From Bernardetiaceae bacterium (GTDB taxonomy: Bacteria > Bacteroidota > Bacteroidia > Cytophagales > Thermoflexibacteraceae), in assembly GCA_025057115.1 (NCBI GenBank), contig JANWWZ010000001.1, positions 248,001 to 312,000 on the forward strand: a stretch of 64,000 bases of DNA, given 5' to 3'. Below the pieces are notes generated by a model, which saw only the letters and a list, made by a program, of their open reading frames with translations, did no database searches and was not told the origin of the DNA. Shown here piece after piece: positions 24,005 to 26,926 of the stretch; positions within the stretch are counted from its first letter, which is position 1, and each line of letters starts with the position of its first letter. The translations under genes and the position numbers were made by a program.

Positions 24005-25639
24005 TTATTGAAAAACCTCTGTAAAGCGAAAATTAAGACCATCAAATAGCCCTAAATCACTCATTTTTAAAGTAGGAATTACCAGTAAAGCCATAAAACT
24101 CAAGGTCATAAAAGGTGCTTGCAGGCTTGTGCCTAGTTGCTTGGCAAAAAGATCGATTTCCTGATAGGCATGGGCTACTGCCAAAGCATCATCGGCAGAC
24201 ATAAGACCTGCTACGGGCAAAGGCAATATTTTTTGTTCAGTAGAAGAGCAAGCCGCTATTCCTCCTTGATGTGCAATCACTGCATTAATGGCTTGGCATA
24301 ATAGTTCATCGCTTGTTCCTACAGCTACGATATTGTGCGAGTCGTGAGCCACAGAAGAAGCCAGTGCACCTTTGCTAATACCAAAACCTTGCACAAAACC
24401 TATAGCTGGCAAGGCAGGTCGATAGCGATTTACAACTACTATTTTTAGCAAATCCTTCTGTGGATCGGCTACGGCTAACCCATCAACAATAGTGGCATCA
24501 AGAATGGCTTTCTGAGTAATTAAGCTACCATCTATGGCAACAATAGCCTGAACTTTATTCGAAAGGGCTTTGAGTTGAAGCATCTCAGGTGTAAGAGGAC
24601 AAGCCGCAAAGCGGTTAATAATTTTTGCCGATGGAGCTCTTATCAATGATCGTCCATTTTCTGCCACCAATGTGCCGTTAATCCATGTTTGCAGTACTTT
24701 GAAACTTTGTAAGTTTTCTACTAAAATAAAGTCTGCAGGATCGCCTTGTCGGAGTTGTCCCACTTGCAAGCCGTAGTGCTGGATGGGATTTAAGCAAGCC
24801 GCTTGAAGTACTTTGAACACGTCAATGCCTTTGGCTACACAGCGAGCAACTAACTGGTTAATATGACCTTCTAATAAACTATCGGGGTGTTTGTCATCAG
24901 AACAAAACATAACATGTTGCCAATGTGATTCAAGCAAGGGGGCAAGGGTATCCAAGTTTTTTGCTGCGCTGCCTTCTCTGATTATGATTTTCATGCCTGC
25001 TGCTAGTTTGTCTAAAGCTTCTTGTAGGGAAACGCATTCATGGTCGGTAGTGATGCCAGCAGCGGCATAGCGACGCGCTTGCTCTCCTTGTAAACCAGGA
25101 GCGTGGCCGTCAATGGGTTTGCCTAATTGTCTTGCAAGGCGAATTTTTGCCATTACTTCTTCTTCCCCTGCCAATACACCAGGATAATTCATCATCTCGG
25201 CAAGGTATTTGAGACGGTCTATTGTAAAAAGTGCTTGTATATGCTCAAGGTGGAGGCTATCGCCAGCAGTTTCAAAACCAGTAGCAGGCACGCAAGAAGG
25301 AACGCCAAAGTAGAATTTAAAAGGCACTGTAGCACCGTTTTCAATCATGTATCGAACTCCCTCTATTCCCATTACGTTAGCAATTTCGTGGGGGTCGGAA
25401 ACGGTAGCTACCGTTCCATGAACTGCGGCAAGGCGCGCAAACTGAGCAGGTACAAGCAAGGAACTTTCTATATGCACATGGGCATCTATAAAGCCAGGTA
25501 TGAGGAAGTGAGGGAAAGCACCCTGAACAGAGCGCACTGATGCAATTTTTCCTTCGCGGATGACTACTTCAGCAGGGAAAATTTGCCGCGCTGGAATAGC
25601 TACTACATTTGCACAAATGGCAATTGAATTCTTTTGCAT
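24005..25639 (-). CDS. ade: Adenine deaminase
   Basis: A 544-residue amidohydrolase that converts adenine to hypoxanthine in purine salvage. The metal-binding HxH is in GFIDAHVHIESS (His54, His56). Further adenine deaminase blocks are TVSDPHEIANVMGIEGVRYM, FKFYFGVPSCVPATGFE, MFCSDDKHPD and SVAHDSHNIVAVGTSDEL, the last in the C-terminal domain specific to this family. The length matches the family. The start codon abuts the start codon of a divergent lipoprotein gene: CATATG at 25637-25642 contains both. Each gene's promoter must therefore lie inside the other's coding region. Confidence 0.95.
   Translation of the reverse strand: MQKNSIAICANVVAIPARQIFPAEVVIREGKIASVRSVQGAFPHFLIPGFIDAHVHIESSLLVPAQFARLAAVHGTVATVSDPHEIANVMGIEGVRYMIENGATVPFKFYFGVPSCVPATGFETAGDSLHLEHIQALFTIDRLKYLAEMMNYPGVLAGEEEVMAKIRLARQLGKPIDGHAPGLQGEQARRYAAAGITTDHECVSLQEALDKLAAGMKIIIREGSAAKNLDTLAPLLESHWQHVMFCSDDKHPDSLLEGHINQLVARCVAKGIDVFKVLQAACLNPIQHYGLQVGQLRQGDPADFILVENLQSFKVLQTWINGTLVAENGRSLIRAPSAKIINRFAACPLTPEMLQLKALSNKVQAIVAIDGSLITQKAILDATIVDGLAVADPQKDLLKIVVVNRYRPALPAIGFVQGFGISKGALASSVAHDSHNIVAVGTSDELLCQAINAVIAHQGGIAACSSTEQKILPLPVAGLMSADDALAVAHAYQEIDLFAKQLGTSLQAPFMTLSFMALLVIPTLKMSDLGLFDGLNFRFTEVFQ
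25582..25611 (+). promoter_or_regulatory. Predicted promoter of the mini-lipoprotein genes, inside ade
   Basis: TTTG (25582-25585), an 18-base spacer and TACATTTG (25604-25611) fit the Bacteroidota consensus. The expected start is near 25618, about 22 bases before the first lipoprotein ATG. It lies within the antisense 5' end of ade. Confidence 0.6.
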
Positions 25640-25804
25640 ATGAGAAAAGCGATCTATTTATGTTTGTTTTCCTTATTGATAGGGGGGCTTAGCGCTTGTG
25701 TGCATGCTCCTCACACTGGATGGACGCCACGCAGGTCCAAGCCCATCAGAACTGGCAAACCAGTTGAACATGCTAAAACTAATAAACGAATTCGGATGTG
25801 GTGA
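25640..25804 (+). CDS. Tiny lipoprotein 1 (54 residues)
   Basis: An ATG at 25640 opens 54 codons ending TGA at 25802-25804. Residues 1-20, MRKAIYLCLFSLLIGGLSAC, are a textbook lipoprotein signal: a basic start, a hydrophobic core and lipobox LSAC. The mature peptide is only 35 residues, basic, and begins CVHAPHTGWTPRRSKPIRTG. The core HAPxTxWTP recurs in the next gene, so the two are paralogues. Its stop overlaps the next start (TGATG). It is divergent from ade with adjoining start codons. The function is unknown. The coding call rests on the perfect signal, the paralogue next door and the fitting promoter. Confidence 0.72.
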   Translation: MRKAIYLCLFSLLIGGLSACVHAPHTGWTPRRSKPIRTGKPVEHAKTNKRIRMW

Positions 25805-25956
25805 TGAAAAGGGGAAAAATTTTGCTTTTTAATTTGCTTGTTAAAGGGTTGATAGTAGTGGTATTGACGGGCATAGTAAGTTGCTATCATGCTCCACGCA
25901 CAGCATGGACTCCTCACAAGCCTAAACGCGTCAAGCCTGATGTTTTCCCGCGCTAG
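25804..25956 (+). CDS. Tiny lipoprotein 2 (50 residues), paralogue of lipoprotein 1
   Basis: An ATG at 25804 shares its A with the upstream TGA stop; 50 codons end TAG at 25954-25956. The signal peptide MKRGKILLFNLLVKGLIVVV leads to a lipobox-like IVSC with Cys27. The mature peptide of 24 residues begins CYHAPRTAWTPHKPKRVKPD and so repeats the HAPxTxWTP motif of lipoprotein 1, then becomes basic. The lipobox (GIVSC) is slightly less canonical than that of its neighbours. It overlaps the third gene by 17 bases in a different frame. The function is unknown. Confidence 0.7.
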   Translation: MKRGKILLFNLLVKGLIVVVLTGIVSCYHAPRTAWTPHKPKRVKPDVFPR

Positions 25957-26074
25957 AAAATGGGGATTGCTTTTATTACTGGTTGTAAGTATTGCAGGAG
26001 GATGTGCTTCAGGGAAGGGAGGTAGAAAACTGCGACGAGGCAAACCCATTCCATGCCCTATTAAAGATTGCTAA
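25940..26074 (+). CDS. Tiny lipoprotein 3 (44 residues) with CPxxxC tail
   Basis: The ATG at 25940 lies inside the end of lipoprotein 2; 44 codons end TAA at 26072-26074. MFSRARKWGLLLLLVVSIAGGC is a strong lipoprotein signal with lipobox AGGC at Cys22. The mature 23 residues are Gly/Lys/Arg-rich and end RRGKPIPCPIKDC, leaving two further cysteines near the C-terminus that could bind a metal or form a disulfide. An ATG at 25889 in the same frame would place 17 residues before the signal and is less likely. Its stop directly abuts the stop of the convergent SUMF1-like gene (TAA then TTA). The function is unknown. Confidence 0.72.
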   Translation: MFSRARKWGLLLLLVVSIAGGCASGKGGRKLRRGKPIPCPIKDC

Positions 26075-26926
26075 TTATTTGTGGGCGCTCATGGCTACGC
26101 GAAATCCAAAAAAAGGACCTGTATCTTGAGGCATATTGCTAATGCGAATGGCAATGCGGTTATCTCCTTCGTAGTTAATCCATGAACCGCTGCGCATGAC
26201 GCGCATGGAACCATTTTTAGGTCCTTGAGGGTCTTTATCAGGGCTTTTGGAGTAGTAGTCGCTGTCATACCAATCATTGACCCATTCCCAAGTGTTGCCG
26301 CTCATGTCGTACAAACCCAATTCGTTGGGAGCCTTCTCGCCAACGGGTTGGGCTCTTTTGTTGGAATTTTTGTCATACCACCCCACCTCATCCAGATTGT
26401 TAGAGCCAGCAAACTTGTATTTTTTAGTGTGTATGCCGCCGCGAGCTGCAAATTCCCATTCGGCTTCTGTAGGTAAGCGGTAAGGCTGTCCCGTCTTTTG
26501 GGCAAGCCATTGGCAGTATGCCTGGGCGTCAAACCAGCTTACATTGACAATGGGAGCGGTGTCTTGCCATCCCCATTTGGGAGTTTCAGGCATAGCGCGC
26601 CCTGTGTCCTTGCAAAACTCCCGATATTGTGCTACCGTAACTTCGTACTTGCCGATATAAAAACTGCTTACGGTAACCTTGTGAATAGGTTGCTCTTCTG
26701 GTTCACCGTCTTCACTGCCCATCAAGAAAGTTCCCCCCTCTACAAAAACCATCTCAGGAGGATTTTTGAGCAACCTGCTGATGTCTTTTTCCTGTTTGTT
26801 TTCTCTCTTGCGAGCTGAAGTGGCAACAATGACCTCGTTGTTGTGAGTACTTCCGACAGATCGCTGAGCATGTGCAGTTATCCCCAATACAGTAGAGGTA
26901 ATTAATGCAAACCAGTACTTCCTCAT
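26075..26926 (-). CDS. Exported SUMF1/formylglycine-enzyme-fold protein
   Basis: A 283-residue protein with signal peptide MRKYWFALITSTVLGITAHAQ (start 26926; an ATG at 27001 would overlap guaA and precede the signal by 25 residues). The mature part is one FGE-sulfatase domain: MVFVEGGTFLMGSEDGEPEE, IGKYEVTVAQYREFC, YRLPTEAEWEFAARGG, NELGLYDMSGNTWEWVNDWY, RSGSWINY and FGFRVAM. The cysteine pair used by true formylglycine-generating enzymes after the RGGSW motif is absent (YEGDNRIAIR instead), so sulfatase activation is unlikely. In Bacteroidota the fold also occurs in GldJ/GldK, but this protein has no lipobox. It is convergent with the mini-lipoproteins and divergent from guaA. Confidence 0.88.
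   Translation of the reverse strand: MRKYWFALITSTVLGITAHAQRSVGSTHNNEVIVATSARKRENKQEKDISRLLKNPPEMVFVEGGTFLMGSEDGEPEEQPIHKVTVSSFYIGKYEVTVAQYREFCKDTGRAMPETPKWGWQDTAPIVNVSWFDAQAYCQWLAQKTGQPYRLPTEAEWEFAARGGIHTKKYKFAGSNNLDEVGWYDKNSNKRAQPVGEKAPNELGLYDMSGNTWEWVNDWYDSDYYSKSPDKDPQGPKNGSMRVMRSGSWINYEGDNRIAIRISNMPQDTGPFFGFRVAMSAHK

Follow-up and report, generated by a model that had tools for sequence, protein, structure and literature searches.

This analysis concerns a trio of very short genes in a 64,000-nucleotide stretch of DNA from a Bernardetiaceae bacterium of the order Cytophagales (contig JANWWZ010000001.1, positions 248,001 to 312,000), which we call the window (G000:C11:248001-312000 in our notation, in which G numbers denote genomes, L numbers loci, and f1 to f22 families of the order). 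Between the gene for adenine deaminase (ade) and a SUMF1-like gene lie three overlapping open reading frames (ORFs) on the plus strand, of 54, 50, and 44 amino acids, each of which begins like a signal peptide and has a cysteine in a lipobox. We conclude that the three are almost certainly real lipoprotein genes and that, judged from sequence, they represent two new families not described in Pfam-A or NCBIfam, here called W-type (ORF1 and ORF2) and C-type (ORF3). The features of the locus are as follows.

25640-25804, plus strand: ORF1, W-type lipoprotein 1; 54 amino acids, lipid cysteine Cys20, mature part of 35 amino acids (CVHAPHTGWTPRRSK...RIRMW)
25804-25956, plus strand: ORF2, W-type lipoprotein 2; 50 amino acids, lipid cysteine Cys27, mature part of 24 amino acids (CYHAPRTAWTPHKPK...)
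25940-26074, plus strand: ORF3, C-type lipoprotein 3; 44 amino acids, lipid cysteine Cys22, mature part of 23 amino acids
24005-25639, minus strand: ade (adenine deaminase), divergent; Pfam Adenine_deam_C PF13382 and Amidohydro_1 PF01979
26075-27001, minus strand: FGE-sulfatase (SUMF1-like) gene, convergent; Pfam PF03781
25582-25611, plus strand: Bacteroidota-type promoter-like motif TTTG-N18-TACATTTG, inside the ade coding sequence

The first-pass annotation of this DNA had described the arrangement, and its description was borne out by the sequence. ORF1 and ORF2 overlap by 1 base and ORF2 and ORF3 by 17; the ATG of ORF1 abuts that of ade and the stop of ORF3 abuts the SUMF1-like stop at 26075, so that neither flank has a gap; and HAPxTxWTP is present in ORF1 and ORF2, as is CPIKDC in ORF3, the mature part of which ends GKPIPCPIKDC (tail cysteines Cys39 and Cys44). 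Read directly from the translations, the peptides display the features by which substrates of signal peptidase II are recognized: an n-region, a hydrophobic stretch, and a lipobox ending in cysteine. All three other members of the genus that were searched show the same overlaps of 1 and 17 bases.

Evidence that these are genes comes from conservation and from the pattern of substitution. At E<=1, ORF2 had matches in 11 of 13 genomes of the family and ORF3 in 12 of 13; removing one probable chance match from each (for ORF2 that in G001, with E 0.043 and two internal stops and absent from a later search; for ORF3 that in G010, with E 0.138 and in an antisense frame of a longer ORF) leaves 10 and 11, respectively. 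Relatives of ORF2 occur across its own family and those of ORF1 in families f1 and f2, the WTP motif having been lost from the G012 counterpart of ORF1. The annotation had named as grounds for abandoning its proposal a failure of the peptides or their lipobox cysteines to be conserved in relatives; instead, relatives were found family- and order-wide. It had also proposed a comparison of nonsynonymous with synonymous change, which we carried out by the Nei-Gojobori method on the pooled mature parts of ORF1 to ORF3 in pairs of genus members. Five pairs showed 0.69-0.79 synonymous differences per site as against 0.057-0.105 nonsynonymous, and the near-identical pair G006/G008 showed 0.157 as against 0. 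No such constraint was seen in the 15 residues before the lipid cysteine, for which nonsynonymous divergence was 0.46-1.16 in the more distant pairs. Selection on the mature parts is thus strongly purifying, whereas signal-peptide sequence drifts; the selected product is therefore the mature peptide. An antisense or chance ORF is ruled out by the purifying selection together with the order-wide conservation.

The W-type is a family defined by Trp-x-Pro, mostly 9-11 residues past the lipid cysteine. Across 26 aligned rows, the lipid cysteine, one tryptophan, and one proline are invariant. In 26 mature forms, hand-picked from the loci that were read, the tryptophan lies at +9 to +11 in 22 and at +13, 17, 19, or 20 in the remainder, and a second cysteine is found in none. 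Net charge is +5 to +10 (17 forms). The W-type model (A7) matched 85 of 291 genomes of the order at E<=0.01 and 47 at E<=1e-4.

The hallmark of the C-type is its cysteine tail. In 36 diverse model rows, taken from genomes of the strict count described below or their kin, the lipid cysteine and PCP are invariant and the terminal aspartate and cysteine are present in at least 90%. The commonest tail is GKPIPCPxKDC, and others include GPMPCPMKDC, GRIPCPIKDC, NKPLPCPQKDC, HPCPxxDC, RMPCPTHDC, KAVPCPCGH, and KAEPCPCDR. The last two types occur in genus g18 of family f12 (L257, L258, L262, and L290), in which PCPCGH or PCPCDR replaces PCPxKDC; both move a cysteine, and PCPCGH also adds a histidine, which is only suggestive as a pointer to metal binding. 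We also assembled 76 distinct forms from named and other genomes; because these were filtered to PCPx[KR][DE]C, the ending KDC in all 76 is by construction. Their first tail cysteine lies 14-22 residues into the mature peptide, their net charge is +4 to +9, and the residue at -1 of the lipobox is serine, alanine, or glycine in 72. Constraint on the cysteine tail is very strong, as would suit a role in thiol or metal chemistry. Separately, three tandem small lipoprotein-like ORFs were seen at L349 (G162:C116:42500-45500), of which two end HPCPQIDC and HPCPTGDC and the middle one has SDCPGLDCGHTGKKK.

How widely is the C-type distributed? The C-type model (A6) matched 171 of 291 genomes of the order at E<=0.01. 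Because many of the weak ones are restricted to the signal peptide, we adopted a strict count (E<=1e-4 and a match extending to model position 41 or beyond), which gave 116 of 291 genomes and 15 of 22 families, with 99 of the 116 reaching the last model position; by this count the C-type is missing from f4, f7, f9, f10, f11, f17, and f21. Among the named carriers are Thermoflexibacter ruber and species of Fulvivirga, Reichenbachiella, and Marinoscillum. A record titled as a Rickettsiales metagenome-assembled genome (L094, PBTY01000020.1), possibly a mislabelled Cytophagales genome, likewise has a C-type gene followed by cmk, ispH, and nqrA. The wider A6 model was applied within the order only. 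When 395 genomes drawn from the phylum were searched with a narrower model (A5), convincing matches were confined to G000, G030, G072, and G085, all within the order; 28 other genomes of the draw had matches, and at the eight loci inspected from these (L174, L176, L179, L180, L182, L184, L186, and L188) no lipobox with a PCP...C tail was found.

Gene order supports the view that the three genes belong together. The W-W-C trio stands beside divergent ade in f1 (for example, G003, G008, G009, and G011) and in f2 (for example, G047, G061, G074, and G099). More broadly, a comparison of W-type matches down to E 6.6e-4, plus G161, with the C-type matches of 38 genomes found 30 genomes, from families f1, f2, f14, f20, and f22, in which the C-type gene has a same-strand W-type gene on its 5' side; weak W-type matches (such as those in G064 and G161) were counted because they adjoin a C-type gene. 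The order is W-W-C-cmk in G064 (f22) and W-C-cmk in G127 (f22) and G046 (f20). From gene order alone we infer that the three peptides may act jointly, as the annotation had suggested.

The setting of the C-type gene was examined in named genomes, which were scanned with GKPIPCPxK, so that conservation of those residues in this set is partly by construction. The scan kept 80 of 88 confirmed loci, and excluding L075 and L110, which had no ORF under a tail pattern that also required a PCP..[DE]C-like end, left 78. In 67 of the 78, the C-type gene is followed on its own strand by cmk, the start of which, in 50 of the 54 loci where one was located, is no more than 20 nucleotides from the C-type stop. 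That cmk follows so closely in most named loci suggests that the C-type gene is expressed steadily, in the manner of a housekeeping gene. Farther downstream of cmk, nqrA is found in 54 of the 78, with ispH between the two in 15, and ade is divergent upstream of the C-type gene in 11. Genomes of f1, f2, and f12 have ade beside the cassette or the C-type gene; in f12, ade adjoins the C-type gene, which in L250, L252, and L253 is flanked at its other end by cmk and ispH. Five named loci (L128, L135, L136, L138, and L139) have ade, C-type, cmk, ispH, and nqrA in this order. The simplest history would be an ancestral block of ade, W-W-C, cmk, ispH, and nqrA that was later split and pruned; the complete block including the W-type genes was seen in none of the loci that were read. 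One further neighbor, a protein of about 229 amino acids (L105:3226-3912) encoded on the same strand and mostly directly upstream of the C-type gene, forms a cluster present in 38 named loci; the one member scanned had no Pfam match.

Other features of the window locus are less constant. The SUMF1-like gene looks to be an incidental, inconstant neighbor of the trio, because it is kept in G007 and a pyridine-nucleotide oxidoreductase gene takes its place in G008. As for the promoter that the annotation had placed inside ade, the motif is indeed there, but its count is at chance level: TTTG-N18-TANNTTTG has its sole match in the window at the cassette, 1 observed as against 0.66 expected. Among 17 cassettes examined, the full motif was found in the window, G006, and G008 only, there inside the ade coding sequence; the G007 cassette retains just the -7 half, and the other 13 are without the full motif.

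On which face of the envelope would the peptides lie? In Bacteroidota, the signal for export of lipoproteins to the surface consists of acidic residues directly after the lipid cysteine, according to two reports (PMC5080379, PMC12578637). Under a rule of at least two acidic residues at +2 to +7, derived in other Bacteroidota, the signal was found in none of the 76 C-type and none of the 26 W-type forms. The absence of an export signal after the cysteine makes a periplasm-facing location likelier than the surface, and we consider it probable that the peptides face the periplasm. Of the two locations offered by the first-pass annotation, surface or periplasm, the former was rejected on this ground and the latter is favored.

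The best explanation for the trio is that it is a small operon of strongly basic lipoproteins with very short mature parts (23-35 residues). Database searches gave little to set beside it: the W-type and C-type peptides matched no model in Pfam-A or NCBIfam, PG1828, BamK, and similar NCBIfam matches being below cut-off and mainly over the signal-peptide part; profile searches of the PDB returned nothing meaningful; and a literature search, made by terms rather than by the letters of the peptides, returned no paper joining lipoprotein, Cytophagales, and "small protein". We suggest that signal peptidase II would cleave the peptides, which would become lipidated and would remain on the periplasmic face, no export signal following the cysteine. 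The basic leash would lie along the anionic membrane, the Trp-x-Pro of the W-type near the anchor may serve for docking to an envelope protein, and the terminal dithiol of the C-type (PCPxKDC, or PCPCGH in some f12 members) may offer that same partner a soft-metal or thiol ligand. This combination of docking and metal or thiol chemistry in periplasm-facing lipopeptides is put forward tentatively, as a proposal with somewhat less than an even chance of being right.

Several observations weigh against it. By the strict count the C-type was not found in seven of the 22 families, and the need for it is therefore not universal. In the compared lists, eight further genomes carry both types apart from one another; in the named set a W-type gene was found (by the filter used) upstream of the C-type gene in only seven of the 78 loci; and genomes of f4 and f15 have W-type genes upstream of cmk and none of the C-type within the stretch read. 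The terminal cysteine is lost in GRNRPCCPNKK (f13), and at L086:3787-3900 a second, shortened tandem C-type gene ends PCPRF. Finally, the lipobox residue at -1 is aspartate in three and threonine in one of the 76 C-type forms, and glutamate in L268.

Among the alternatives, the one that fares best takes the peptides for assembly helpers like LptM, whose anchor and first residues would dock into an outer-membrane barrel machine and stabilize it as it is assembled, while the C-type dithiol would aid disulfide maturation of the partner. LptM (YifL) of E. coli, a lipoprotein of about 6 kDa, has conserved residues immediately behind its lipid cysteine (PMC10567701); the W-type peptides are likewise tiny, and in 22 of 26 forms their tryptophan is at +9 to +11. 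The LptM profile was not matched, however, the single hit being a sub-cut-off signal-peptide match to NF047847 (E 0.012), and reports place LptM in Enterobacteriaceae, other Proteobacteria having related lipoproteins. By this comparison LptM is best regarded as the nearest working analogue rather than a relative, and we judge the explanation possible but doubtful.

An accessory role for the C-type in the Na+-translocating NADH:quinone reductase, for instance in iron delivery, is quite improbable. The small membrane-associated protein NqrM (DUF539), a maturation factor of that enzyme, resembles the C-type in its clustered cysteines, and the idea was suggested by the nqrABC genes downstream of cmk, nqrA being near many C-type loci. 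Yet across 19 genomes the two do not occur in step: the C-type is present without an nqrA match in G002, G003, and G013, and nqrA without the C-type in G005, G015, and G018. The synteny fits an old neighborhood, and PF04400, which we take to be the NqrM family, had no match in the Pfam scans.

Ranking below this in our estimation is the possibility that the C-type is a lipidated ribosomally synthesized and post-translationally modified peptide (RiPP), its C-terminal cysteine motif being modified as in DybA to give a macrocycle or metal chelator. The appeal of the idea is that DybA-type peptides, too, are lipoproteins whose C terminus has a CP...C motif: such DAG-RiPPs (DybA; ChrH/DybH subfamily of MNIO enzymes) are described in preprint PMC12636315 as short Bacteroidota peptides with a lipobox and a motif of CP plus a second cysteine, and the preprint also mentions an uncharacterized lipidated CxxxxC group. 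Two C-type members matched the chryseobasin-related NF050125 (E 0.0031 and 0.025; best 0.0027 among 36), all below its 40-bit cut-off. The C-type tails are PCPxKDC and variants, whereas the DAG-RiPP tail is CPxCGxG, and no biosynthetic cluster was seen; nor was a modifying enzyme seen among the clustered or mapped neighbors, though most small clusters lacked names. A search for the MNIO family PF05114 in 77 chosen genomes (carriers being those with A6 E below 1e-6, with G176 and G024 counted among them) gave no support: it was over cut-off in four of 47 C-type carriers as against six of 30 non-carriers, and was not found in the genome of the window. Least probable of all is a toxin/antidote set like entericidin A/B, which are also tandem very small lipoproteins, as no Pfam or NCBIfam entericidin profile was matched and the genes are retained across the order and closely coupled to housekeeping cmk.

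A bolder form of our own proposal, in which periplasm-facing lipopeptides dock on an envelope protein, would make W-W-C a set of unfolded, obligate subunits of a Cytophagales envelope machine, two Trp-Pro peptides docking it at the membrane and the third supplying a dithiol for soft-metal loading or disulfide maturation; as it stands we regard this as unlikely. The findings nevertheless bring to light two families of small proteins (about 40-60 residues) that have persisted through much of the order with an almost invariant tail and that no Pfam-A or NCBIfam model matches, and indicate that short conserved genes can hide in the gaps next to ade and cmk. With three genes and two motifs, they offer a precise small target for studying the role of micro-lipoproteins in Bacteroidota. 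If the obligate-subunit proposal were true, the trio would represent a novel kind of envelope subunit that consists of motifs only, old enough for the ancestor of a large part of the order to have had it.

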